Below are positions 2,169-19,344 of a DNA stretch of 37,570 bases, one piece after another (positions within the stretch are counted from its first letter, which is position 1; each line of letters begins with the position of its first letter). The notes under the pieces are model-generated. The model had not been told where the DNA came from. It made no database searches and saw nothing but the letters and a program-made list of their open reading frames with translations. A program made the translations under genes and the position numbers. This stretch comes from Candidatus Ruminococcus equi (GTDB lineage Bacteria > Bacillota > Clostridia > Oscillospirales > Acutalibacteraceae). The stretch is taken from positions 1 to 37,570 of the forward strand of contig JAGHTC010000030.1 of the NCBI GenBank assembly GCA_018065465.1. Direction: 5' to 3'.

Positions 2169-2636
2169 TTATCGAAACAAAATCAACATATATTGACCGT
2201 ATTCTTCATTAAGGCAGTTTATTATTCCGTCTTCTGCCTGTGCGTCCTGCGACACCGTCACCTTACTGCTTGAAATGGTAATTCCGCTTGTGCCGCCGCT
2301 TCCGTAGTATGCAATTCCACTGCGTACCAAGGTGTTACCATCGTTATCTACCGTAACGGGCGGATAGAATTTTTGCACGACTATCGCAAGTTTCGGAGTA
2401 TTTTCAATGCTTATCTCCTTTGTGCTTTCTCCGTCTCCGACATAGGATATAATCGAATAGGGGTTTGTAAATTTTGCCCTCTCCGCCGATGTCACATGCA
2501 TTGTGGTATTTGCAAGGTGCGAACCGACAGTTGAATCAATTATACTGTTATCCGAAACGAAATCGGCTCGCTTTGGCTTGTCGCTTCCGTTCCATTTGCA
2601 CAAGCCGAGATTCGGTGTATATTCAGTAGATGCCAT
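2169..2636 (-). CDS. Phage tail fibre/collar-like protein (short)
   Basis: 155 aa; N-terminus TPNLGLCKWNGSDKPKRADFVSDNSIID resembles XkdV-type fibre N-termini; last gene of structural cassette. Confidence 0.6.
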   Translation of the reverse strand: MASTEYTPNLGLCKWNGSDKPKRADFVSDNSIIDSTVGSHLANTTMHVTSAERAKFTNPYSIISYVGDGESTKEISIENTPKLAIVVQKFYPPVTVDNDGNTLVRSGIAYYGSGGTSGITISSSKVTVSQDAQAEDGIINCLNEEYGQYMLILFR

Positions 2637-3208
2637 TATTCGTCCTCCTCTGTTAAGTTATCAAAATCGTCCCACGACATATCAAGAGCATCAATTTCCG
2701 TAAATGTCATATCTTTTTCGTCGAGTTCATCCCACGAAATGCTATTAAACAGCACCTGCCATTCAAGATGAGCGGGAAGTATTTTTTCGACCTGTGACCT
2801 TATCCATTCTTTTTGGGCCTCGGTGTAATCGCCTTCGGCATAAACCATAACACGATTAAACCGCGGGAATTCGTCTATCACATAGTCCAGATTAAAACTC
2901 GACAACGCCTTGTCAAATCCCGACAAGGTGAAATCTTTGCGACAGATACTTTCGCGCTTTATAAGCATATCCCTTCGTTTATTCAGTGGCAGGTTGTCCA
3001 TTGTCGGGCCGTAAATAAGTTCGTAATTTGTAAGTCCGTAGGTCGACGCCGTCTGGAAAAATGCCTCGTTTAGCATTCTGTTAAGAAGACTGTCAAGCCT
3101 TTCAATTTCAACAGCGTATGCCGAAATCTCACAGTTAACCGTGGTATTTTGAAAGTCATACAGCCCTGTGTCAAAGAGGGCTTTTTTCATTGAAATATAC
3201 GGTCTCAT
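2636..3208 (-). CDS. Phage tail protein I-like / XkdU-YmfQ-like baseplate protein
   Basis: 190 aa, placed directly after the baseplate J-like gene with overlapping ends. Confidence 0.65.
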   Translation of the reverse strand: MRPYISMKKALFDTGLYDFQNTTVNCEISAYAVEIERLDSLLNRMLNEAFFQTASTYGLTNYELIYGPTMDNLPLNKRRDMLIKRESICRKDFTLSGFDKALSSFNLDYVIDEFPRFNRVMVYAEGDYTEAQKEWIRSQVEKILPAHLEWQVLFNSISWDELDEKDMTFTEIDALDMSWDDFDNLTEEDE

Positions 3209-4269
3209 TCTCCCACCTGCCTGAATATGATGTCATACGGATAAACATACTGGTACTGATACGGATGCACATCCATACTGGCGGAAAGAAAAGTAAAGTT
3301 TTTCACTCCGTCTGTATGATAAATTATCTCGCCGATATCTTTCAGCAGAACATCTACGCCGATACCGAGAGAATTTATATACTCACACAGTTTGTTTCTT
3401 ATGGTGATACTTAATTCATCAAAATCATAGCCGTCTTCCTGTTCGAGTCTTACATACAATGTGTAATTCAGTCGTGTTGCCTGATAAACTTTGACATCAA
3501 CATTCAGTTCTCTCGATACATCCATAATATCCTGAACCTGACTTAATACAGAAGCAGTGACAGGTCCGCCTTTTGCGGCGACATATACATTCACCGTTCC
3601 CGTTCCTCGCGCTTTCGGATATACTCCCGCAGAATATACTCCGTCTATACTTTGAGCAAGTTTCTTATAATATACGGAATTAGTACCGTTTGATATATCC
3701 TTGTAACTTTCGAGGACTCTTTTTCGCAAATTTTCGTCATTCTCGGCATTTTCTCCGCCTTCAAACGCATTAAGATTTTTTACGCTCGTAATTCCAACAA
3801 CAGGTGTTACGATAACAGATACCGCACCCGCTTCGACATTTCCGCTTTTTCCCGCAACTTCTGCTGTTACGGGAGCGGTTACCGTTCTTACATTATGGTA
3901 CATAGTTACATCTTCATCGGTTACAAATCTTATTGCTTCATCAGAAGAAGTGCAAATAACCGTACCCGCGCTGACTGTGATATTTTCTGTCGGTATTGTG
4001 TCGGCATAAAAAGTTACCACACCTTTTGCTTTTGTCGCGTCTTTTCTGTTAAGACCTCTACGCTGGGCGTGCATATCAAGATACTCGCCTGTCGCTGTAT
4101 TTACAAACATCTGCCTGAGTACAAAATCAGCCTGAACATTTTGTTTATACAATTCTCCTGCGAGTACTTTGAGCCTCAGCATTATGTCTGATTCATCGTT
4201 TATTTTACACTGTGCCTTGCTTTCATATTCTTCTACCATATTATGTAAAATCTCATCAAAACTACTCAA
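3205..4269 (-). CDS. Baseplate J-like protein (XkdT family)
   Basis: 354 aa; LDMHAQRRGLNRKDATKAKGVVTFYAD, AGKSGNVEAGAV and ENAENDENLRKRVLESY motifs typical of baseplate J. Confidence 0.9.
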   Translation of the reverse strand: MSSFDEILHNMVEEYESKAQCKINDESDIMLRLKVLAGELYKQNVQADFVLRQMFVNTATGEYLDMHAQRRGLNRKDATKAKGVVTFYADTIPTENITVSAGTVICTSSDEAIRFVTDEDVTMYHNVRTVTAPVTAEVAGKSGNVEAGAVSVIVTPVVGITSVKNLNAFEGGENAENDENLRKRVLESYKDISNGTNSVYYKKLAQSIDGVYSAGVYPKARGTGTVNVYVAAKGGPVTASVLSQVQDIMDVSRELNVDVKVYQATRLNYTLYVRLEQEDGYDFDELSITIRNKLCEYINSLGIGVDVLLKDIGEIIYHTDGVKNFTFLSASMDVHPYQYQYVYPYDIIFRQVGE

Positions 4270-4609
4270 ACACTATCACCTCCGTACCTATATCCTGTCC
4301 TTTGTAATTTATTCTTATGTTCACCGTATAAGCATCATTTTCATCCGTTATCGAAACAACTCCAACATAAATATCGGGGATATTCACTACGGCTTCATTT
4401 AGAATAATTTCAAGCCTGTCCTTTGCATTTTCAAAAGAAAAGATGTTTTCCGATACCTCTGCTCCAAACTCTCTGTCATAGACAAAACTGCCCTTTTTTA
4501 CCGAGCAGGCAAGTTTTACTCTTTGGCGGATTTCGTCCGTTCCCGTTATGTAAACCGTGTCACCGTTATCAAGAGTTTTTATGTCTTTATTCTCAATTTT
4601 TACATCCAT
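4262..4609 (-). CDS. gp25/gpW-like baseplate wedge protein (XkdS-like)
   Basis: 115 aa; RQRVKLACSVKKGSFVYDREFGAEV... with position immediately before gpJ. Confidence 0.7.
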   Translation of the reverse strand: MDVKIENKDIKTLDNGDTVYITGTDEIRQRVKLACSVKKGSFVYDREFGAEVSENIFSFENAKDRLEIILNEAVVNIPDIYVGVVSITDENDAYTVNIRINYKGQDIGTEVIVFE

Positions 4610-4610
4610 A

Positions 4611-4958
4611 TCAGGAATTAACCTCCTGTCCGTTGATAAGAACTTTTCCGTTGTTTTTCAACAGAATTGTTGCTCCGCCCGAAGAAAAAAGCATCAATTC
4701 GCCCGGCTCTAAATCCCTTTGCTGTGCTACAACACCCAAGCATACATCCCTGTCATCTGTCGGCAAAACAACACATTTTTCGCCGACTTTCGGAACATAG
4801 GCTATGCCGTAGGGTGCAACACAGCAAAGATTAAATCGGTCATTTGTCGCTCCGACAGAAACTTCATTATTCGATGCACTTGTGACATTGCCGAGCGACG
4901 CATCATCTTTTGAAAAAGAATTTTTCGTTACATAATCAGTCAGCCACATATCAGACAT
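4611..4958 (-). CDS. Baseplate spike/gpV-like protein (XkdR-like)
   Basis: 115 aa OB-fold-like; PKVGEKCVVLPTDD...GGATILLKNNGKVLINGQEV. Confidence 0.6.
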   Translation of the reverse strand: MSDMWLTDYVTKNSFSKDDASLGNVTSASNNEVSVGATNDRFNLCCVAPYGIAYVPKVGEKCVVLPTDDRDVCLGVVAQQRDLEPGELMLFSSGGATILLKNNGKVLINGQEVNS

Positions 4959-5883
4959 CCTTCCTTTTCAGCACGACAGTAGTCACATCTTTTTTTGAAT
5001 TCAGCACATAGCGAACTTCGCTGACATAAAGATTTTCTTCATCAGAGCAAAATTCACTTTTTACTTTTGCACTCCTGCCCAAAATATCGAGGTATCTGCC
5101 CTGACAAATAAGTTTTATATTAAAACTGTTTTTTCGTCCGTTTGATATCATCATATCGGCACATTTCATCGGGGTATCTGTCAAAACTGCGTTGAGATAT
5201 CTCTCCCTTGTAATGCCTCTTTTTTGTGCATCTTCGTTTGTCACTTTGCAAAAATATCCGGAGGAATTTGTAACTTTGATATTCACTCTTGATATTTCTT
5301 CGCACCGCTTTTGTGTCTGTGTCAAAGAGATATAGTTAATATCACCGTCACCTGCGGAAAATACGACTTCGTCTCCGTATGGTGATAAAAAATCAAGTTC
5401 GCCTCGTATATTTATTCTCGGTGTCTTTGAAAAACAGTTGTTGAAAAAGTTGTACACCGCCTGCCAGTTTGACATACCCTTGCTGATTACAAGTTCACCG
5501 AAGTATGTGCTGTCGCTTCCGTTGTATTTTGAAATACCGAAAGGCTTTGCGTGTTTCTCAAAAATAAGATTTGCGTTGGGGTGGTTATATGTCACGGGAA
5601 TACTCTCGTTATCTATCAAAACAGCCGCCATAGAACGGGCACAGATTTTCAAATATGCCCCATCCGTTGAGACTATAGTTTGCTGTTCATCAACAACGCC
5701 GGTAAAAACAATCATATCGTCATCGTATACAACAACGCTTTTCAGTTGTGGTACTTTTTCATAAGAGAAAACCGCCGTCATATCGTCACAGGGAATGTTT
5801 TCTTCCTGATTTATCGACAACGCAAGCGGGCAAAATAAAAGCACCTTTGTATCTTCAATATCTGTAAAAACAAATTTCAGCAT
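4951..5883 (-). CDS. Late control gpD-like / XkdQ-like tail hub protein
   Basis: 310 aa; position between the LysM protein and spike; beta-rich hub-like sequence. Confidence 0.65.
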   Translation of the reverse strand: MLKFVFTDIEDTKVLLFCPLALSINQEENIPCDDMTAVFSYEKVPQLKSVVVYDDDMIVFTGVVDEQQTIVSTDGAYLKICARSMAAVLIDNESIPVTYNHPNANLIFEKHAKPFGISKYNGSDSTYFGELVISKGMSNWQAVYNFFNNCFSKTPRINIRGELDFLSPYGDEVVFSAGDGDINYISLTQTQKRCEEISRVNIKVTNSSGYFCKVTNEDAQKRGITRERYLNAVLTDTPMKCADMMISNGRKNSFNIKLICQGRYLDILGRSAKVKSEFCSDEENLYVSEVRYVLNSKKDVTTVVLKRKDV

Positions 5884-6395
5884 ACTCTCACCTTCTCTAT
5901 ATCTGTCAGGTCGTCTATATATCTTATCTGCGGATTAAGACTTACTAAACTTTCTATCTTTTTCTCATACATATTTGCAATATCCCACAGCGTTTCTCCC
6001 TGTGATACGGTATGTATAATACTTGTATCATCTTCGGTGTTCTCGCTTTTTGTCTCTTTGAAAACGAATTCATAGGTAAGCACATTTTCCTTTGCTTCGC
6101 CGATAAGAGAAAGTTTCTCAAACAGAGCATACATACAGATTGTTTTCGAAATACTCAGTATTCCCTGCTTTTTCAGTTTATAAACCTTTTCAAGGTTTCT
6201 GTATTCTTCAAGGCAGTTTTCGCCGTAGAGTTCACCTACCCCGCTGACGGTCCGAAGATTTTCTCCGAAATCTTTTGAAAAATGCTTTTGATACGGTGAG
6301 CAAAGATTTACAACATCTTTGTCGCTGATAATCTTAATCGACTTTGGATTGTGGTGCCAAGTGTATGAGCAAAATCTCATGGGTACAAGTTTCAT
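5877..6395 (-). CDS. LysM-domain tail protein (XkdP-like)
   Basis: C-terminal LysM HTVSQGETLWDIANMYEKKIESLVSLNPQI; start ATGA-overlaps the 46-aa ORF. Confidence 0.75.
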   Translation of the reverse strand: MKLVPMRFCSYTWHHNPKSIKIISDKDVVNLCSPYQKHFSKDFGENLRTVSGVGELYGENCLEEYRNLEKVYKLKKQGILSISKTICMYALFEKLSLIGEAKENVLTYEFVFKETKSENTEDDTSIIHTVSQGETLWDIANMYEKKIESLVSLNPQIRYIDDLTDIEKVRVC

Positions 6396-6532
6396 TTTAC
6401 GCTTGCCTCCTGTTCGTCAAGAAATGCTCGCACAAAGCGTCTTGCGTCCTGCTCCAAGAATTCCGACAATATGCTTACGCTGTCATCGGGAGCAAGTTCA
6501 TCGGCAAATTCATAATATCTTTCGTTATTCAT
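6392..6532 (-). CDS. 46-aa ORF absent from the supplied track: MNNERYYEFADELAPDDSVSILSEFLEQDARRFVRAFLDEQEASVK
   Basis: Manual translation of the minus strand; ATG overlaps the end of the upstream gene by 8 nt and TGA overlaps the next ATG (ATGA). Confidence 0.65.
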   Translation of the reverse strand: MNNERYYEFADELAPDDSVSILSEFLEQDARRFVRAFLDEQEASVK

Positions 6533-6905
6533 CTTCTACCTCGCTTTGTGTCATATTTTTTGCAGTAATCGTATATTTATCGCAAACATTCTTTGCACCG
6601 TCTGCTACTCGCTTTTTCTCTAAAAGATTACAGCCTTCATATGTATATGTTCTGCTTTTGTCGCAAACGGTCAGGGTAAAGTTACTGCTTGACAGTACAT
6701 CAAAATCGAAAAGCGAAAGAGCGACAAGTTCGAGTACATAATGCTTTTGCTCATTTACCGTGTCAAAAGGCTCACCTGACAAAAACTCGTTTATATCATA
6801 GTGCGAATACTTTTCGTCCGACACAAAATCGGTCACACCGTAGAGCGCAGTTTCGTTGACGGAAAGTGAGATATCCGTGCCTTTTGTTATCCTCAAATGG
6901 TTCAT
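6525..6905 (-). CDS. Phage tail-associated protein, possible tube-like (unverified)
   Basis: 126 aa, predicted beta-rich, TYTYEGCNLLEKKRVADG resembles the C-terminal strand region of tube proteins; position suits a tube. Confidence 0.4.
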   Translation of the reverse strand: MNHLRITKGTDISLSVNETALYGVTDFVSDEKYSHYDINEFLSGEPFDTVNEQKHYVLELVALSLFDFDVLSSSNFTLTVCDKSRTYTYEGCNLLEKKRVADGAKNVCDKYTITAKNMTQSEVEDE

Positions 6906-7339
6906 ACACTTGCCTCCTCATAAAGGCAGTAGCAAAGGTTAACACTGACATCTCTGTATACGGTACGCATTGTGCTTTCGTAAGAAATCGGAAAAAGTTT
7001 TATTGAAGAACAGACTTTTGACACATCGTTTCTTTTGATTGCATCATACAAAGCGTTTGCACATAATGACAGCGAATCACCCGAGTCAAAAGACTTTGCA
7101 TACACACGAAAACGCAGGGTAATATCATACATTCTTCCGACAAGGTTTTCGCCTGCAGATTCACCGATAAACTCGGTACTGATTTGGGTATCGAGAGTAT
7201 CTACCACTATCATTACTTTGGTGATGGGATTCGGGATTTTTTCGCCGGAATATCCCTTTACAAATGTGTATTCACTCAAATGTTCATCGTTTTTTATTCT
7301 CTTTACAAACTCATCAATGTTTTCCTCAATCTGTGTCAT
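6902..7339 (-). CDS. Phage neck/tail-completion-like protein
   Basis: 145 aa; position after head-tail connectors; overlaps both neighbours. Confidence 0.5.
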   Translation of the reverse strand: MTQIEENIDEFVKRIKNDEHLSEYTFVKGYSGEKIPNPITKVMIVVDTLDTQISTEFIGESAGENLVGRMYDITLRFRVYAKSFDSGDSLSLCANALYDAIKRNDVSKVCSSIKLFPISYESTMRTVYRDVSVNLCYCLYEEASV

Positions 7340-7685
7340 AATCGTCCTCCCTCATTTTCTGATATTCAAGAAGAATTGCCCAAATATAGATTATGTCTTT
7401 CCCGACTTTGAACTGTTCACTTGTCACTACTGTATATTTTTGTCCCTCGTGGGTGATAAATGTATTCATCCCTCTTTCAAAAGGATGTGTGGGGTCGCCG
7501 ATATACAGAACATACTGATTATCGAAATATCCCGACGGAATAATCTTGTCGTTTATATAAAGTCTGTGTCGGCGTCTTAACGGCTGGATAAACGCTTTGC
7601 TGTATGTAGTCTGTCCGTCTTTTTCGATTTTAACAGAACTTGCATACTTTTCCATTGCATACCTTATTGTGCTTTTTATACTCAT
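7326..7685 (-). CDS. Phage head-tail joining-like protein
   Basis: TGATG overlap with the upstream gene supports the internal ATG at 7685; position and size of a head-closure protein. Confidence 0.5.
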   Translation of the reverse strand: MSIKSTIRYAMEKYASSVKIEKDGQTTYSKAFIQPLRRRHRLYINDKIIPSGYFDNQYVLYIGDPTHPFERGMNTFITHEGQKYTVVTSEQFKVGKDIIYIWAILLEYQKMREDDYDTD

Positions 7686-8050
7686 CAGACCACCCGACAA
7701 AAAACAAAGTCGTCAGAGCCGACAAGATCAGACACTTCTTCTTTTTCACAAAGCCAAAGTTGCTTTGCCTTGTTTACTGTATCTTCATCAACGGAAAACT
7801 CAACATCGCCCGCCTTAAAACGGCTCAGATTTTCTGCCGACATACAGCAATTTACTTTGTAGTAGGCAAAAACGGCACAAGCGTGAACAAGCCTTTTTCT
7901 GTCCGTTTTACTTGTGCTTTCACTTATCTTCTCATTGAAAAAGCCCATACAGTCAATAATAATCGGCAGGTATTTTGAAATTTCTTCTTCACTTTGTCCC
8001 GACACCAGAGCATATCTCTTTATGACTTCATTAAGACTCAAGGTGCCCAC
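7685..8050 (-). CDS. Phage head-tail connector-like protein
   Basis: 121 aa, helical, immediately downstream of the capsid gene. Confidence 0.5.
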   Translation of the reverse strand: MGTLSLNEVIKRYALVSGQSEEEISKYLPIIIDCMGFFNEKISESTSKTDRKRLVHACAVFAYYKVNCCMSAENLSRFKAGDVEFSVDEDTVNKAKQLWLCEKEEVSDLVGSDDFVFCRVV

Positions 8051-8056
8051 CTCCGA

Positions 8057-9064
8057 TTAGTATGTCAGTTTCTTTGAAGCACCGACAAAAATCTTTGCAA
8101 AACCTGCGATACAGCTGATTGTTGCACGCTCTAACTGGCGGTCAATGAGCTTGTCGTAGTCGGTTGTAACATCGCCCGCTTTGACCATTTCGAGAGCGCA
8201 GTTTTTGTCAAGACCGATAATAAGGTCGGAAGAAATGGAAGAAGTGTGAATGAGGTTTGCACCCAAAGGTGTTACCATCTTGCCGCTGCCCTGGAAATTG
8301 AGTCCCGCTACAGCGTCTTTCATCTCGTCCATTTTGAGAATCTGTGTCATTGCGCCTGTCGGGGCAAGGATAGTATTGAGTTTGTAAGGTGACAAACTCG
8401 CCCAAAGGGAAACAAGGTCAGCGTAGGTGATTGTGTCTGCTGTTGCGGTAGAGATACCGGAACAAGCGTTGTTGTTGCCGTCACCGTTTAAAATTACATT
8501 AACGGCGTCGTTTAACTGTGCTTTTGCAATATATGCACCAATCTGCTTAAGTGTTACCGTAAACAGGTCAAGACGCTGGAAACGAAGAGCCTCGTATGAT
8601 GATACAAGCATTCTTCCGCGCTTTTGAAGTTTTACAAGGTTTTCCTGGGTTTTTACAACTGTCTGGGGAATGACTGCACCCTCGCCTACTGCTGCAAGTG
8701 ACTTGTCATCGTCTGTCGGATTTGATGTGATTGAACGGTAGTCCATACCGTCAATCATGGTTACGGTTGCAACAATATCGGAAAGAGCGTCTGCTTCTTC
8801 CATACCCTGCATTACCGCTCTGCTGACATATTCGGGGAAAAGTGCCGATGAATTTGAAGTCTGAAAAAATTTCTCAACACAGTCGGAACCTACTCCGCTT
8901 ACTTTGATGTCAAATCTTTTGAGCTGTCTTGAAAATGCGTCTAAACCGTCAAGTTCGGTGCCCTTGTAGTTTTCGCTCGGGTCTATTTTTTCGAGTACAT
9001 CTGTCAGGCTTTTGCCTGTCTGGTACATACCTTTTTCAAGTGTTATGTTTTCATATAAAGCCAT
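8057..9064 (-). CDS. HK97-fold major capsid protein
   Basis: 335 aa; SEEFP-like N-terminal arm, VVKTQENLVKLQKRGRMLVSSYEALRFQRLDLF, syntenic after prohead protease. Confidence 0.75.
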   Translation of the reverse strand: MALYENITLEKGMYQTGKSLTDVLEKIDPSENYKGTELDGLDAFSRQLKRFDIKVSGVGSDCVEKFFQTSNSSALFPEYVSRAVMQGMEEADALSDIVATVTMIDGMDYRSITSNPTDDDKSLAAVGEGAVIPQTVVKTQENLVKLQKRGRMLVSSYEALRFQRLDLFTVTLKQIGAYIAKAQLNDAVNVILNGDGNNNACSGISTATADTITYADLVSLWASLSPYKLNTILAPTGAMTQILKMDEMKDAVAGLNFQGSGKMVTPLGANLIHTSSISSDLIIGLDKNCALEMVKAGDVTTDYDKLIDRQLERATISCIAGFAKIFVGASKKLTY

Positions 9065-9079
9065 AATTTTGCCTCCCTC

Positions 9080-9412
9080 TTAAAGAATAATGCCGACACG
9101 GTCTGTGCCGACTGTTACGACAAGATAACTTTTTCCGCTTTCTGCTGACTTTACGCCAGTTGAAGCCGCTACAAGGATGTTGTAGCCCGCTGTGATTGTT
9201 GAATCGCTAGTTGCAAGTTCAACGTAGCCCTCTAGCTGTACAGTTGCGTAACCGTTTCGAACGCCTACGCATACGCCGATAAAGTCATCGTTTGCACTGC
9301 ATGGTGTAACGGTATCGGATGCACTCATTTTTACGAGTGAACCTGCTTCTACCGTACTGCTTGCAATAAATGTTGCTACGTTTTCGCCGTAGCCCTTAAA
9401 ATTTACATTCAT
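9080..9412 (-). CDS. Capsid decoration/cement-like protein (DUF2190-like)
   Basis: 110 aa beta-rich; ASSTVEAGSLVKMSASDTVTPCSANDDFIGVCVG, between protease and capsid. Confidence 0.6.
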   Translation of the reverse strand: MNVNFKGYGENVATFIASSTVEAGSLVKMSASDTVTPCSANDDFIGVCVGVRNGYATVQLEGYVELATSDSTITAGYNILVAASTGVKSAESGKSYLVVTVGTDRVGIIL

Positions 9413-9426
9413 GGTTTACCTCCGAA

Positions 9427-10392
9427 TTAAATTGTGAATTGGGTATTGTTATGAGTTTTTTCGCCTTCACTTTTAGAAAAAAGTTGAGGCTTTACGGGCA
9501 TTGTTTTTTCTGCCCTTTTTTCATACGCCGCTTTGAGTTCTTTTATCTCGCTGGTACAAAGCTTTGACAAAATTTTTTCAAGTGTTTCGGTTTTCAACTC
9601 GTTGTCGCAAAGGGCTGAGAGTTTTACTACCGATTTTGTCAAATCTTCTCTGTAAAGTTTTGCGTCCTCTGCACCTTTTTCAAGAGTAACTATGTACTCA
9701 AAAAGGTTTTTCGACTGCGACTTTGAAAGCGTGATTTCTTCGCCTTTTTCAAGGGCTTTTCTGATATTTTCCATATAATCTGCCTTTCCTTTATGTGCCT
9801 TTATTACGCCCGCACCTTTTTGTGCCGGTACGGCAACAAAACTGAATTCATACGCATCAGTAGGTGAAATAAGTTCGCCGAAGCATAACTTTGAGCCGTA
9901 TTTTTCGCCCTTTGTATGACTGCACGCGTTTGAGTGAATATCGTTTGAACAAATTGAGCAAACGACCTTTTCTACGGCACAGCCGACAGACACTTCCTTT
10001 AATATTCCCGTGTCTATCATATCGATAAAGTCTTCGTTTTTCTTTGTTATCGGAATATACGCTCTTGCAACAAGTCTGAAATAGTCGTCACCGAGCATTG
10101 TTTTTCTGCCTTCTATCGCTTCGACAGAACAAGAAATTATCCTTGCTGTCATATTCTCTGCTTTCATACTGTGGTCAACTATGCCCGTTTTTCCGACAAA
10201 AAGTTTTTCGAGTTCAAAAAGAGATTCCACCGTAAAGCGTTCGTTATCTCTGTCGATATCGTTGTCGCAAAGCACAACCGAGAAAAGATACACATCTTCG
10301 CTTTTGAGTTCTTTTCTTGAATAAGAATTTACGAGTGCCATTTCTTCTTCGCTGATACTGTCAAAAGTTTTTAACACCTGTCCCGTTTTCAA
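9427..10392 (-). CDS. Prohead protease-like protein with Cys/His cluster
   Basis: NDIDRDNERFTVESL, GKTGIVDHS, LKEVSVGC motifs; CSICSNDIHSNACSH cluster; overlaps portal gene. Confidence 0.75.
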   Translation of the reverse strand: MKTGQVLKTFDSISEEEMALVNSYSRKELKSEDVYLFSVVLCDNDIDRDNERFTVESLFELEKLFVGKTGIVDHSMKAENMTARIISCSVEAIEGRKTMLGDDYFRLVARAYIPITKKNEDFIDMIDTGILKEVSVGCAVEKVVCSICSNDIHSNACSHTKGEKYGSKLCFGELISPTDAYEFSFVAVPAQKGAGVIKAHKGKADYMENIRKALEKGEEITLSKSQSKNLFEYIVTLEKGAEDAKLYREDLTKSVVKLSALCDNELKTETLEKILSKLCTSEIKELKAAYEKRAEKTMPVKPQLFSKSEGEKTHNNTQFTI

Positions 10393-11546
10393 TTTTTCAC
10401 CCCCGAAAGTTCAGTTTCGATTTTCTCTGCTTGGGCGTTTGTGAGTCTTGCGTTTGCAAGTTCTGTTTCGTCTTGCAGGTTGATATTGTTCCAGACTATA
10501 TCAAAGTCCGAAGTTTCTCCCGTAAGTCGCAAAAAAGTTTTTACTATCTTTTTTATTACGGGATTTATAAGAGTTCTGTAATAGTCGATTTCACTTGTGA
10601 GAATATCCGCTTGCTGGGCGCTCATTCTCTCGGTTGTTGACCAAGAAAGCCCGAGTAAAAACGGCGGAATAGACAGTTTTGATACAATCTGTTCCAAAAT
10701 GTGTTTTATCGGAACATCGTAGTCAAGTACCTGATTATCCGCACCGATTGCTTTTATCGACACATCACCGACAGATACAAAGTCGCAAACTTGCGATGTG
10801 TCACGCATAGCTTTGCTCCATTCCTTCGCGATTTCTTCTGCCTTTTTTCTTGAATTTGAAGAAGGAGAATTATCCGAAGGCTTGTATGTAACCGCAAAGC
10901 GAACATTTCCGACACGCTCGAAATTTAAACCCATTGTGTTGAAAATTTTCAGGAGTATCCCCGACACAAAGGGCAGCCCGCAAAGTATTGAATTGCCGAC
11001 AAGCGTTCCGGGAGTCGGATTTAAAAGAGAGAGTAAAATCAACTGCTGATACTGTACTTTTTCTGCTTTTATGCCGTCGGTCTTTACATACACAATCGGC
11101 TCTAAAATGCTCGTTTCGTAACCGATTTCGATATCCTTTAGTGATGCGTTGTAAAGAGAGTCAACAGACGAATTATCGCTTGACAAAACGATTTCGCCAA
11201 CCGCTGTACCGTATGTCAGAAGCTGGTCGAAATAGGTGCTGATAAACTGCCCTATTCCTATTGATGTCCCGTTTACTTTGACATTTTTCAAAAATGAATT
11301 TACGGCATTTTCAACTTTCTTTTTTTCGCAAGTTACAGAGAAAGTTCCCAAAAGCCGCACTATTTTTGATATAGCGGCATCAATTACCGGCACCGCTTCT
11401 CTTAAAGATGAATAAAGAGAAATCTGCGGATTTGAACACGGGTTGTATCTGTTTATCTCATAAAACGGATGTCCCATAAAGGTTGACGGAGAAACCACAC
11501 AAGTTTTTTCATCTGATGTTTTCTTTTTTGATGATATAAGTTTCAA
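10389..11546 (-). CDS. Phage portal protein
   Basis: 385 aa; AVPVIDAAISKIVRLLG start and KLSIPPFLLGLSWSTTERMSAQQADIL near the C-terminus, typical of portals. Confidence 0.85.
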   Translation of the reverse strand: MKLISSKKKTSDEKTCVVSPSTFMGHPFYEINRYNPCSNPQISLYSSLREAVPVIDAAISKIVRLLGTFSVTCEKKKVENAVNSFLKNVKVNGTSIGIGQFISTYFDQLLTYGTAVGEIVLSSDNSSVDSLYNASLKDIEIGYETSILEPIVYVKTDGIKAEKVQYQQLILLSLLNPTPGTLVGNSILCGLPFVSGILLKIFNTMGLNFERVGNVRFAVTYKPSDNSPSSNSRKKAEEIAKEWSKAMRDTSQVCDFVSVGDVSIKAIGADNQVLDYDVPIKHILEQIVSKLSIPPFLLGLSWSTTERMSAQQADILTSEIDYYRTLINPVIKKIVKTFLRLTGETSDFDIVWNNINLQDETELANARLTNAQAEKIETELSGVKN

Positions 11547-11565
11547 TGTAACCTCCGTGATTTAC

Positions 11566-12807
11566 CTATCTTTTTGCGGCGATTGCAAAACACGAATCGC
11601 CGTTTTCCAAATAAGTTGTGACAAAATATCTTATGTCATCCATAGCGTGGTCGTTTTCTTTGAGTACCGTGTCTTTGCTTTTCTTTTCATCCCATCTGTA
11701 AAGCGAAAACTCTCTTTTTGCGTCTTCGCAGTTATCACAGATAACGATTCGTTTTTCTTTCAGTGCAGAAGATGTTTTGCGTATGCCGTCAAGCACATTA
11801 TTGTCAGCCGTCATAACAACGAATTTTCCTTTTCTTTTGATAACCTCAATGAAACTTTTGGCTGACGGGTCAACAATAATTGCTTCGATAGATCGTTCAC
11901 CGATAAGACTGATAAGAGCGTCATAATGCTCTTCGTCAGTACGCATAACGCCTTCTTTTTTTGAATCAAAGTAGTACTCATCTATTCGATACCACACAAA
12001 ATCTTTTCTGCCCCAAAGACCAAACGACGAGGGATTTACAGTGCCGTAATCGCAGGATACGACAAATTCGTGAAACTCCTCATCTGGCACAGGGCAAAAC
12101 ATACTGCTGTCCATAAAGGGATAGACAGCACCCGACACCGACACCCATTCACCTTTGACAAAACGGCGATAAAACGCTCCCGAGTACAGGCTCTCGTAGC
12201 GACTTATCATTTCATCACTCAATGACGGGTTGTCCTGCATCGTAAAGTGGATATACAAAGCACGTTTATCATCGCACTTTTTTATCCATTCTTTGTAGAA
12301 CCAATGGTAGGGATATTCGGGATTACAGTTGAAGAAAAATTTTGAGCCCGAAACGGAACAGCGCGCAAGAGCCTGCTCAACAAAGGAACGAGGCATCAAG
12401 GCGACTTCATCAAAAAGAACACCTGAAAGTGTCACGCCCTGAATAAGCGAAGCGCTTGACTCGTCTTTCCCCGAAAAAAGGATAAGGGTAATTTCTTTTT
12501 TCTTATCGCTTACCGTTATCCTGCTCGAAGAAATGTTGTCTTTGACAGAAAATCCGAGTTCTTTGAGAATAGGCAAAAGTGGGATTACCACATTTCGCCT
12601 AAGTGATTTTATCGTCTTTCCGCAAAGCCCGAACAGCCCCCCGTCGAATGTCGAAAATGCCCAAAGCACGAACGACAGCGACAAAGAGAATGTTTTTCCC
12701 GAACGCACCGCACCGTCACAGATAATTGCGTTATAGTTTTTGTATTTCGAGTTTTTCCACCAGGAAAGTGCCTGCAACTGCTTTTTCGAAAACGGCTTAT
12801 ACTCCAC
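11566..12807 (-). CDS. Terminase large subunit (PBSX family)
   Basis: Walker A GAVRSGKT, Walker B GVLFDEVALM, nuclease motifs CDYGTVNPSSFGLW, VDPSAKSF, HAMDDIRYF; GTG start. Confidence 0.93.
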   Translation of the reverse strand: MEYKPFSKKQLQALSWWKNSKYKNYNAIICDGAVRSGKTFSLSLSFVLWAFSTFDGGLFGLCGKTIKSLRRNVVIPLLPILKELGFSVKDNISSSRITVSDKKKEITLILFSGKDESSASLIQGVTLSGVLFDEVALMPRSFVEQALARCSVSGSKFFFNCNPEYPYHWFYKEWIKKCDDKRALYIHFTMQDNPSLSDEMISRYESLYSGAFYRRFVKGEWVSVSGAVYPFMDSSMFCPVPDEEFHEFVVSCDYGTVNPSSFGLWGRKDFVWYRIDEYYFDSKKEGVMRTDEEHYDALISLIGERSIEAIIVDPSAKSFIEVIKRKGKFVVMTADNNVLDGIRKTSSALKEKRIVICDNCEDAKREFSLYRWDEKKSKDTVLKENDHAMDDIRYFVTTYLENGDSCFAIAAKR

Positions 12808-13288
12808 TTATATCACCGCACTCATCAAAGGCATTCTCCGCTTGGCTGCTCAACGCATCCAAAAGCGTGCTTGCAGATGTGCTTTCCTTTTCGTCAAGAG
12901 TAGAAAGTTTTTCAAGCGCTTTCACTCTGTCGAAAAACTTTATCTCCACCGATTTGTCAGTTCTTTTTATCTCCGAAACAGAGAAAAGGTCAAGCGAATT
13001 TATCAACTCTTTTGTCGGAGCGTTTTCATACAAAAGGCTCACCGCATCTGCAACATTTGAGAATGCAAGACGGTAAAGTCCAATCAAAACAAACGATGAT
13101 TTCAGTTTGTTTTTTTCTTTTACCATTCTCGCGATTTCATCACAAATGTCTGACCTGCAAATAAGTTTATTTGAAGCCTTTTTCGGATTTTGAAAACCCG
13201 CAAGTTTTGCCGAATGCTCCATATCTCCGTTTTCACAAAAATAAGAACAAAAATCTTTTTCTTTTTTTGTCAGTTTTTTCTTTGACAA
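12797..13288 (-). CDS. Terminase small subunit
   Basis: KLTKKEKDFCSYFCENGDMEHSAKLAGF...ICRSDICDEIARM terS signature; TTG start with AAAGGATG RBS; overlaps terL. Confidence 0.85.
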   Translation of the reverse strand: MSKKKLTKKEKDFCSYFCENGDMEHSAKLAGFQNPKKASNKLICRSDICDEIARMVKEKNKLKSSFVLIGLYRLAFSNVADAVSLLYENAPTKELINSLDLFSVSEIKRTDKSVEIKFFDRVKALEKLSTLDEKESTSASTLLDALSSQAENAFDECGDISGV

Positions 13289-13327: not shown

Positions 13328-13361
13328 AAAAGAAAAAAGTTGCATACGGATATGCAACCTT
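13328..13361 (-). terminator. Intrinsic-terminator-like hairpin in the 5' leader region of terS
   Basis: Minus strand AAGGTTGCATA-TCCG-TATGCAACTTTTTTCTTTTT; 8-bp perfect core stem extended by wobble/A-T pairs, then T-run. Confidence 0.7.
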
Positions 13362-16902: not shown

Positions 16903-19182
16903 TTACGAATAAGTCCAAGATTTAACTGACCAAGTTTTCGGGTCAGCCGTTGTATCGGAGCCACCTGTTACCTTGTCGGGATACCAAGCCATATTTTCGC
17001 TAAACGGTCCCTTAATATCCTGGGTTTTTGCTGAGCCTGAATTACTGCGCCAGATAAGTCCCTGTGCATCTGCGGGAAGGTCACAGCAGTAAATCTTCTG
17101 TCCGTAATCATTTGTCTTTACATAGGTGCAGGTAGGACTTGTCTCCCAAGTCGGGTTTTCACTTGCTGAACCCCACCAGTAAGCTTTTACGACAGACCAG
17201 TTATCGCCGTTTGTAAAGTATACTTTTACTGTCTTCGGCGGGTCGCCGACAAGTTCTTTGAACTCTGTGTAAAGGTTGTTCAATTTGTTGTATGCTGTGT
17301 CGGATGTGTCACCCGATTTTTCAAGTTCTTTGACATATTTTTTGAGTGCCTGATACTGGTTATATGAAGCGTAAAGGTAACTTGCTGTCAAATCGCTCTT
17401 TGACTTCTTTATTAAAGCCGCGATATCGTTTGCACCGGTTACTGCGTAGTCGTTTGAAGAAGTCTTTGCAAGTTGTTCTTCAACGGGGAATTTGTCGATA
17501 AGTTTTGCAAGTTTCTTTTGGATTAAAGTTGCATCGACAATATTAAGAACATCGGTACCGTCTACTCTTGCCAAAACAAGCTGGTCAGGTGACAGTGTAA
17601 TCATCTTTGCAAGGGCTTTTTGAATAAATGTTGCGTCAACAATTTCAAGTAGATTATTCTCGTCAACATCGCCGTAGAGCAAAGGCTTTTCGGTTGTGGG
17701 CTGTGTAGTGGGTTGAGTAGTAGGCTGTGTTGTGGGCTGAGTTGTAGGCTGTGTAGTCGGCTGTGTGGTAGGCTCGGTAGTCGGCTCAACTCTGTTGCCT
17801 TTTACGAAATAACTTGCTGTCGGGATAATCTCGTTGTAGTAGAGGTTAGTTCCGTTGAATACTGTATGGTCTGAGTAAACATCAACAATATATCCTTCTG
17901 TCTTTTCGAGTGATGTATCGTTAACTCTTGTTGTGCCGTTCTTTATCATTCTTACAGCACCGACAGACGAGTTGTGGATGATAAGTGCAGATGTACTGCT
18001 GTTATCCGAGTAGTTTAACTGCTGGTCAAGACAAAAATGAGTATGACCTGTGATTACAACAGCATTCTTATATGTTTTGAGGAGGTTCTTGAGTTTTACC
18101 GTTGAAGGCATTGTATCTTTCAGCGGGATATCATAAATCGGTCTGTCAATCTGGTCGCCTGCGCCCCATTTGTAGAAGTTGCTGTGTTCAACGATAAAGC
18201 AGTTTTTGCCGTCGTTTTGATATGCTTTGAGTTTTGATTCAAGCCAGGAAAGTTGAGCATCTGTAAATTCATCTACTCTGTCGGTGTAGAAACCGCCTTC
18301 AAGCGCCAACATAAGGAAGTGGTCGCCTGTAGTAGGCTCTGTGAATTCGTAGTATGCTTTGCCCGCTTTGATTGTTGCGCTGTTTGAATCAAGGCCTGTG
18401 CTCTTAATAAAATATTTTGTGCCGACAGACGGGTCTTTTCTATAATCCGATTCGGTATCGCCGTTCCAAAGTTCGTGGTTGCCGATTGCTTCATATATCG
18501 GGTTGCAGTAATCACTTTCGGACAAGATTTTCAGATATCTGTTCCATTCTGCAGCATAGTACGGGTTTGAATGAGAACTTCCGGAATCGGCTCTTTGGTT
18601 ATTTACATGGTCACCGCTTGTGACAATAAAGTCAACTTTTCTGTTAGCGGCGGTTTTGAACGCAGAAGCAAGGTGCTGTTCATCGTAAGGATAACTTGAA
18701 CTTCCGCCTTCGCACATATGAATATCGGACAAAGCTTCGAAACTGTAAAGTTTAGAGGAACTTTTCTTTGTCGGAAGTTTTGAATCCGGTATTGTATATA
18801 CAGCCGCAGCAGAAGTAACTGTCTTTGTAGTCGGCTTTGATGCTGATTTAATGGCGATTAGTTTTGTTGCATCGGCTGGGATAGCCGTTTGTGCAGGCAT
18901 AGTAAAAGTTGCCTTTCCCGAAGATGCTGTCACCTGTGCTATTTCGGCATAACCCGAAAGTGCAGAAGTGTTGTCAGCCCAGTAAAGCCAGTATGAAGTA
19001 GGCGAAGCGGTAGAGTCAACGGATAGAGTAATAGTGCCCTGTGCATAGCCTTTGTCATTTTTGTTATTTCCCGAAAAAGCGTATGCTATCGAGGACGAGG
19101 CGCCGGCTGTAATAGTAAAACCGGTACACGCTAATGACAAAAGTATCATGGCAACAAGACACAAAGAAATCAATTTCTTCAT
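16903..19182 (-). CDS. Secreted calcineurin-like metallophosphoesterase with TTQP linker, dockerin and C-terminal CBM-like domain
   Basis: SDIHMCEG, TSGDHVN, IGNHELW, ITGHTHF; dockerin YGDVDENNLLEIVDATFIQKALAKM/ARVDGTDVLNIVDATLIQKKLAKL; VKVYFTNGDNWSVVKAYWW; RBS GGAGG before internal ATG at 19182. Confidence 0.85.
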   Translation of the reverse strand: MKKLISLCLVAMILLSLACTGFTITAGASSSIAYAFSGNNKNDKGYAQGTITLSVDSTASPTSYWLYWADNTSALSGYAEIAQVTASSGKATFTMPAQTAIPADATKLIAIKSASKPTTKTVTSAAAVYTIPDSKLPTKKSSSKLYSFEALSDIHMCEGGSSSYPYDEQHLASAFKTAANRKVDFIVTSGDHVNNQRADSGSSHSNPYYAAEWNRYLKILSESDYCNPIYEAIGNHELWNGDTESDYRKDPSVGTKYFIKSTGLDSNSATIKAGKAYYEFTEPTTGDHFLMLALEGGFYTDRVDEFTDAQLSWLESKLKAYQNDGKNCFIVEHSNFYKWGAGDQIDRPIYDIPLKDTMPSTVKLKNLLKTYKNAVVITGHTHFCLDQQLNYSDNSSTSALIIHNSSVGAVRMIKNGTTRVNDTSLEKTEGYIVDVYSDHTVFNGTNLYYNEIIPTASYFVKGNRVEPTTEPTTQPTTQPTTQPTTQPTTQPTTQPTTEKPLLYGDVDENNLLEIVDATFIQKALAKMITLSPDQLVLARVDGTDVLNIVDATLIQKKLAKLIDKFPVEEQLAKTSSNDYAVTGANDIAALIKKSKSDLTASYLYASYNQYQALKKYVKELEKSGDTSDTAYNKLNNLYTEFKELVGDPPKTVKVYFTNGDNWSVVKAYWWGSASENPTWETSPTCTYVKTNDYGQKIYCCDLPADAQGLIWRSNSGSAKTQDIKGPFSENMAWYPDKVTGGSDTTADPKTWSVKSWTYS
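17691..17790 (-). repeat. In-frame 12-bp-period repeats encoding (TTQP)n/TTEP linker
   Basis: Translation TTEPTTQPTTQPTTQPTTQPTTQPTTQPTTE. Confidence 0.9.
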
Positions 19183-19344
19183 AAATCTTACCTCCAATAT
19201 TGATGACATTATAATTTTTCCGATTTCATTATATCATATTTGCTCTTAAAAATAAAGATATTAACTTATTTTTAGGAGTTTCCAACAAAGAACACGGCAA
19301 AAATGTGTATAACATTACAAGTAAAAATTTTTTCGCGTAATTGT

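Follow-up and report, generated by a model that had tools for sequence, protein, structure and literature searches.

Gene transfer agents (GTAs) known outside the Alphaproteobacteria are few. Among them is FpGTA of Faecalibacterium prausnitzii, described in 2026 as 40-nm particles without visible tails that contain 8.4 to 8.9 kb of host DNA; every Faecalibacterium genome inspected by its authors carried it, and they called it the first GTA from the human gut microbiome (PMC12946183). Its operon I comprises TerS, TerL, portal, scaffold, and capsid genes, and its operon II comprises baseplate, fiber, receptor-binding protein (RBP), holin, and endolysin genes (PMC12946183). In known GTAs, TerS is devoid of a DNA-binding domain (PMC6854486, PMC11841831), and CcGTA is controlled by antitermination (PMC11150451). 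Here, we analyzed a phage-like cassette at positions 2169 to 13288 of a 37,570-nt stretch of DNA (the window) on contig JAGHTC010000030.1 of Candidatus Ruminococcus equi (GCA_018065465.1), which we read with good but not full confidence as part of a domesticated, vertically inherited, two-locus GTA-like system with a sheathless mini-tail.

Like FpGTA, this system belongs to the Clostridia and is divided into two unlinked operons with the same division of labor, and its portal-protease-capsid order agrees with that of the FpGTA accessions (capsid/portal, RCH50849/RCH50851). Unlike that of FpGTA, operon I here adds a tube, a LysM protein, a hub, a spike, a wedge baseplate, and a tape-measure stub. 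The first-pass annotation of the window had taken the architecture to be undescribed, which is not wholly so, considering that FpGTA offers GTA-like capsids without visible tails and a comparable two-operon set (PMC12946183). The XkdP/Q/S/T-like and gp44-48-like baseplate order is that of PBSX (Bacillus) and Mu, although both of these possess a sheath and a long tape measure. Domestication and vertical inheritance are also features of RcGTA and CcGTA, which have extra genes away from the head-tail cluster, but these are alphaproteobacterial and combine a siphovirus-type tail with a TerS lacking the DNA-binding domain.

Genes were called with Pfam, PHROGs, and PDB profiles, with AlphaFold and Foldseek added for the tube. 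All 17 genes named in the first-pass annotation proved to be intact, tightly spaced open reading frames (ORFs) at the positions given there, and their Pfam and PHROGs identities confirmed the proposed PBSX/Mu-like gene order, which runs through terminase, portal, protease, capsid, and connectors to a Mu-like baseplate (Table 1). No integrase, replication, or lysis genes were found within the cassette, which in the genus loci is bordered on either side by host genes. Walker A/B motifs and putative nuclease acidic residues were present in TerL, as read from the sequence. Against PDB sequences, the capsid profile gave no match and connector 3 no meaningful match. The LysM protein has a homologue in the related locus L005 that additionally matches PF07157, and the short fiber gene is conserved as the last gene in 16 of 20 genus loci.

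No cassette ORF in any frame matched a sheath, and none in any frame was of sufficient length for a long tape measure. The negative result for the sheath is meaningful because Pfam sheath families do score that of a relative, the L005 sheath reaching 51 and 41 bits with two such families as a positive control. Genome-wide, the sheath family PF17482 exceeded the cutoff in 1 of 60 genus genomes, that of Ca. Ruminococcus equi itself being without it, and the tape-measure family PF10145 returned nothing from the latter; by these searches, a location of the missing genes elsewhere in the genome was rejected. Thus, the absence of a sheath that had been proposed from the ORFs was borne out, whereas the proposed loss of the tape measure held only in part, as profiles recovered a stub of the ruler. 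In addition, structure search disclosed a tube fold.

The 126-aa protein encoded at 6525 to 6905 has a tail-tube fold in the AlphaFold model (predicted local distance difference test score, 86), and Foldseek aligned this model with the tubes of phage 812, monocin, Mu, diffocin, and lambda and with the RcGTA virion (best E value, 2.5e-7). Moreover, a tube profile built from the genus alone detected the tube beside the sheath in 28 of 28 sheathed loci of relatives, with no other match among 3,315 ORFs. On this predicted fold, the protein is the tail tube, which was retained rather than lost. The apparent gap between the tube and LysM genes is occupied by a 46-aa ORF (6392 to 6532) that had been overlooked and that overlaps both neighbors slightly; its homologues in the genus loci read are 36 to 57 aa long. 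The best matches to its profile were the proteins directly before LysM in sheathed loci (E values down to 1.8e-6), and in most of these loci the profile recovered the 93- to 229-aa protein at that place, a mini tape measure with which the ORF has a C-terminal [DE][AS]RRY motif in common. Since the ORF matches the C terminus of the mini tape measure, the ruler was trimmed to its end rather than deleted, so the first-pass annotation was correct that no long tape measure exists but missed the stub. Tail length usually amounts to ∼0.15 nm per ruler residue, and 46 aa would therefore allow at most ∼7 nm, or one or two tube rings. The cassette thus encodes neither a podovirus tail, which has no tube of the major-tail-protein fold, nor the sheath and full-length tape measure of contractile phages, tailocins, and PBSX. 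The gp25-like "sheath initiator" (4262 to 4609) is under purifying selection although the sheath is absent, which suggests a role in the wedge ring itself.

Sheathed sister cassettes (e.g., L093, L107, L177, L178, L232 to L241, and L244 to L246) share the same order from TerS to gpI, with homologous head, tube, and baseplate, but differ by a sheath, the 93- to 229-aa mini tape measure, and often XkdN-like and zinc-ribbon proteins. Because the sheathed form contains all parts, it is probably ancestral, and the sheathless cassette was probably stripped down from a contractile version. Among 40 loci read from the wider family, two were sheathed (L177 and L178), about a dozen ended after the connectors, and the others were sheathless with a baseplate. 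Elsewhere in the order, the sheath was present in 10 of 11 loci read from one family (f14), and another (f26) held a mixture of sheathed and strongly reduced loci. Sheathed relatives therefore exist, as would be expected of an isolated deletion in this copy, but throughout the genus and in most of the family it is the sheathless form that has become fixed, and so the copy is not a lone deletion. Several reduced loci (L242, L243, L247 to L249, and L002) ended at or near LysM/hub, resembling the 10-ORF FpGTA I, and some of them had the capsid and protease genes in swapped order.

The cassette is vertically inherited. Of the 60 species in the genus, 55 had a single intact copy of the portal gene, as did 29 of the 30 near-complete genomes; in one other genome, G057, the gene is in two pieces, and G056, a 100%-complete member without a portal match, represents a clean loss. 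Gene order was identical in all 20 genus loci read, with the host genes gerA, spmB, and spmA and a lipoprotein gene flanking the cassette in many of them, while in other genera the neighbors differ and the cassette persists. Comparison of the cassette and rpoB trees gave a Mantel r of 0.856 (reached in 0 of 2,000 permutations), with 18 of 26 splits in common. In the family, the portal was found in 112 of 200 genomes and 79 of 135 genera; order-wide, the capsid was found in 71 of 394 genomes from at least six families. The cassette is also under purifying selection, the ratio of nonsynonymous to synonymous substitution rates (dN/dS) lying between 0.02 and 0.23 for each of the 17 genes when three species pairs were compared. 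The proposal that the missing genes were lost precisely and not by random decay is upheld by these ratios, by the genus-wide conservation, and by the short overlaps that were kept. In addition, entries of IMG/VR and GenBank "Bacteriophage sp." records (L003, MT835952.1; L004, MT836604.1; and L061 to L091) are copies of such a cassette, the L003 record even including the flanking gerA gene; with many copies filed as viral, public virus sets count a host element as virus.

Operon II is unlinked to the cassette and lies outside the window. In relatives, the genes after a BppU-type gene encode phage holins (PF16945, PF05105, and PF04531) and endolysins (CHAP, GH25, and Amidase_3). The genome of Ca. 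Ruminococcus equi carries, on contig C11, a 503-aa gene whose N-terminal 200 aa have a predicted BppU-type baseplate fold, and the contig ends within the next gene; near the end of contig C22, a 94-aa membrane protein, an r1t-type holin, and a CHAP-like endolysin follow one another in one run. A GH25 gene at C37:21003 was rejected as a lysis gene because of its housekeeping context.

The two operons have a leader element in common. A perfect palindrome (TTGCATA-N4-TATGCAA) lies at 13340 to 13357, between terS and gerA, and its core occurs exactly at three places in the genome, two of which are the two operons. The C11 site, which precedes the 503-aa gene, likewise has a T-run and a similar downstream TATAAG; the third site (C87:37682, after glmS) was set aside, having no T-run and no phage genes nearby. 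Across 32 leaders (20 of terS and 12 of operon II), the 11-bp hairpin was 94% paired, and 6 of its 11 pairs had changed on both sides, which none of 500 shuffles reached; as these leaders were hand-cut around the element, the covariation indicates conserved pairing rather than discovery. The strict element was found at 20 sites in the 647 kb read, each of them ahead of terS or operon II, but this sequence was chosen for containing the loci, and the genome-wide count of three places is the fairer test. The hairpin was the sole conserved part of the leader, whose whole RNA fold was no better than shuffles (z, −0.84) and which gave no match in an Rfam search. A scan for a sigma-70-type promoter that would account for TATAAG past the hairpin gave no promoter; because the TATAAG of operon II abuts the ribosome-binding site, a place inside the leader is likelier for the hairpin than one upstream of a promoter.

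Judged from the gene set, TerS, TerL, and the portal would pack DNA into the capsid, and the three connectors would form the neck. These would be followed by a minimal noncontractile tail, probably a single tube ring or a few of them, kept short by the 46-aa ruler stub, and then the LysM protein, hub, spike, and wedge baseplate, the last presumably an inheritance from a contractile phage. Such a particle accords with the capsid and baseplate on a very short tail that had been envisaged initially. The BppU-type baseplate protein of operon II would bind the receptor, while its holin and endolysin would lyse the producer. The common terminator-like hairpin could allow one factor, an antiterminator or a DNA-binding activator, to switch both operons; the antitermination of CcGTA is a parallel to it and nothing beyond that. 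Particles with random host DNA would then bind kin, and the DNA would pass through the short tube. Lacking a sheath, such a tail could not contract; it is therefore unlikely to kill in the manner of a tailocin and more likely to let DNA pass passively, in podovirus-like fashion.

In support of a GTA-like nature, the system combines phage-derived head, packaging, and tail genes lacking replication and integration genes, vertical inheritance (from the rpoB comparison and the genus and family distribution), purifying selection on structural genes, and several loci including a lysis module, all of which are expected of GTAs. Several observations weigh against it. The TerS of the window keeps the N-terminal DNA-binding domain that GTAs are expected to have lost, for which reason we name the system GTA-like and not a proven GTA. 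This helix-turn-helix-type domain is retained in the genus and was lost in many family lineages (L141 to L180, L002, and L005), suggesting that packaging specificity may have shifted on more than one occasion. Packaging and transfer of random host DNA are putative here, and the likeness to FpGTA, for which particles have been seen, is one of gene make-up by description. No match was found in 88 of 200 family genomes, where the cassette is therefore dispensable or too diverged. A search of 24 genomes failed to recover the operon II protein in 8 of them, perhaps owing to its rapid divergence, and the halves of operon II on C11 and C22 would be joined if the contig ends adjoin, as the gene order of relatives suggests.

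Among other explanations, a PBSX-like particle that packs host DNA without delivery and either attacks rivals as a bacteriocin or does no more than lyse its producer is unlikely. The PBSX/Mu-like gene order speaks for it, receptor-binding and lysis genes would fit it equally, and the same option was left open for FpGTA (PMC12946183); purifying selection on terminase, portal, and connectors argues otherwise. For PBSX and R-type tailocins, killing through the tail requires a contractile sheath, the very part that is missing in this lineage. A capsid domesticated for another host task, such as storing cargo or taking part in sporulation, seems more doubtful still: the stable position beside the spore genes gerA, spmA, and spmB in many genus loci would suit it, but the neighbors vary in other genera while the cassette remains, and the holin, endolysin, and BppU-type protein indicate release and cell binding. 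We consider it very improbable that the cassette is an active prophage or a phage satellite whose missing tail genes are borrowed or hidden elsewhere. Its compactness and the copies listed as viral would agree with this, but it descends vertically as a single copy with fixed neighbors and no mobility genes, has its own baseplate, and is accompanied by no sheath above the cutoff in 59 of 60 genus genomes. A decaying prophage remnant that lost its sheath and tape measure by chance would explain the genes missing relative to full contractile phages, but the low dN/dS, the frames intact in nearly all species, the conservation, and the short overlaps make it scarcely credible, and it was rejected.

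The GTA-like system thus appears to be neither an ordinary prophage nor debris but, short of proof, a GTA variant that belongs to a graded series of tail loss. Whether this extends to an order-wide GTA family from one contractile phage we regard as evenly balanced; such a family would have passed by stepwise stripping from sheath and mini ruler to tube and 46-aa ruler stub and then to a head-only operon I, with a new virion type (the sheathless tube-and-wedge-baseplate mini-tail) and hairpin-linked control together with an unlinked lysis/receptor operon. If true, GTA-like particles would be an old inherited trait in a large part of one clostridial order and could provide a route for gene flow in the human gut, copies having been seen in human fecal samples. 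Moreover, the intermediate stages of contractile-tail loss that the family shows make the least DNA-delivering tail, and the need of a baseplate for a sheath, directly testable.

TABLE 1 Cassette genes and leader element in the window, in cassette order
Feature	Position	Strand	Basis
Leader hairpin AAGGTTGCATA-TCCG-TATGCAACTTT plus T-run, before terS	13336..13361	-	Common to unlinked RBP/lysis operon
TerS, small terminase	12797..13288	-	PF03592, E 1.5e-10, residues 6-131; N-terminal helix-turn-helix-type domain retained
TerL, large terminase	11566..12807	-	PF03237, 1e-16; phrog_2, 6e-49
Portal	10389..11546	-	phrog_30703, 1e-120; found in 55/60 genus genomes
Probable head maturation protease/scaffold	9427..10392	-	phrog_16951, 1e-95; weak phrog_18299 protease
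Head decoration-type virion protein	9080..9412	-	phrog_4588, 2e-18
Major capsid protein, HK97 type	8057..9064	-	PF25209, 3e-15; phrog_3922, 4e-96
Head-tail connector 1 (adaptor position)	7685..8050	-	Position only; conserved in all genus loci
Connector 2 (stopper position)	7326..7700	-	Position only
Connector 3 (tail terminator position)	6902..7339	-	Position only
Tail tube protein, 126 aa	6525..6905	-	AlphaFold/Foldseek fold; genus profile
46-aa ORF, C-terminal stub of mini tape measure (contains LEQDARRFVRAF)	6392..6532	-	Genus conservation; profile matches in sheathed loci
LysM baseplate/tail protein (XkdP-like position)	5877..6395	-	PF01476, 2.6e-5
Baseplate hub, Mu gp44/gpD-like	4951..5883	-	PDB 3d37, 5.9e-8; phrog_177
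Probable spike, Mu gp45/gpV-like	4611..4958	-	Weak: 9ki1, E 0.02; phrog_25991, 2e-13
gp25/gpW-like wedge ("sheath initiator")	4262..4609	-	PF10934, 2.8e-7, 31.0 bits, slightly below cutoff of 32.9; phrog_120, 3e-12
Baseplate wedge gpJ (Baseplate_J)	3205..4269	-	PF04865, 2.7e-50
Baseplate wedge gpI/Mu gp48	2636..3208	-	PF10076, 2.8e-10
Short fiber/tail-end protein	2169..2636	-	phrog_33092 N terminus, 5e-5

Away from the cassette, the window encodes at 16903 to 19209 a secreted metallophosphoesterase-like protein of 768 aa, which has a linker of threonine-rich repeats as well as a dockerin-like repeat, and a similar 851-aa protein is encoded on contig C37 (L294).

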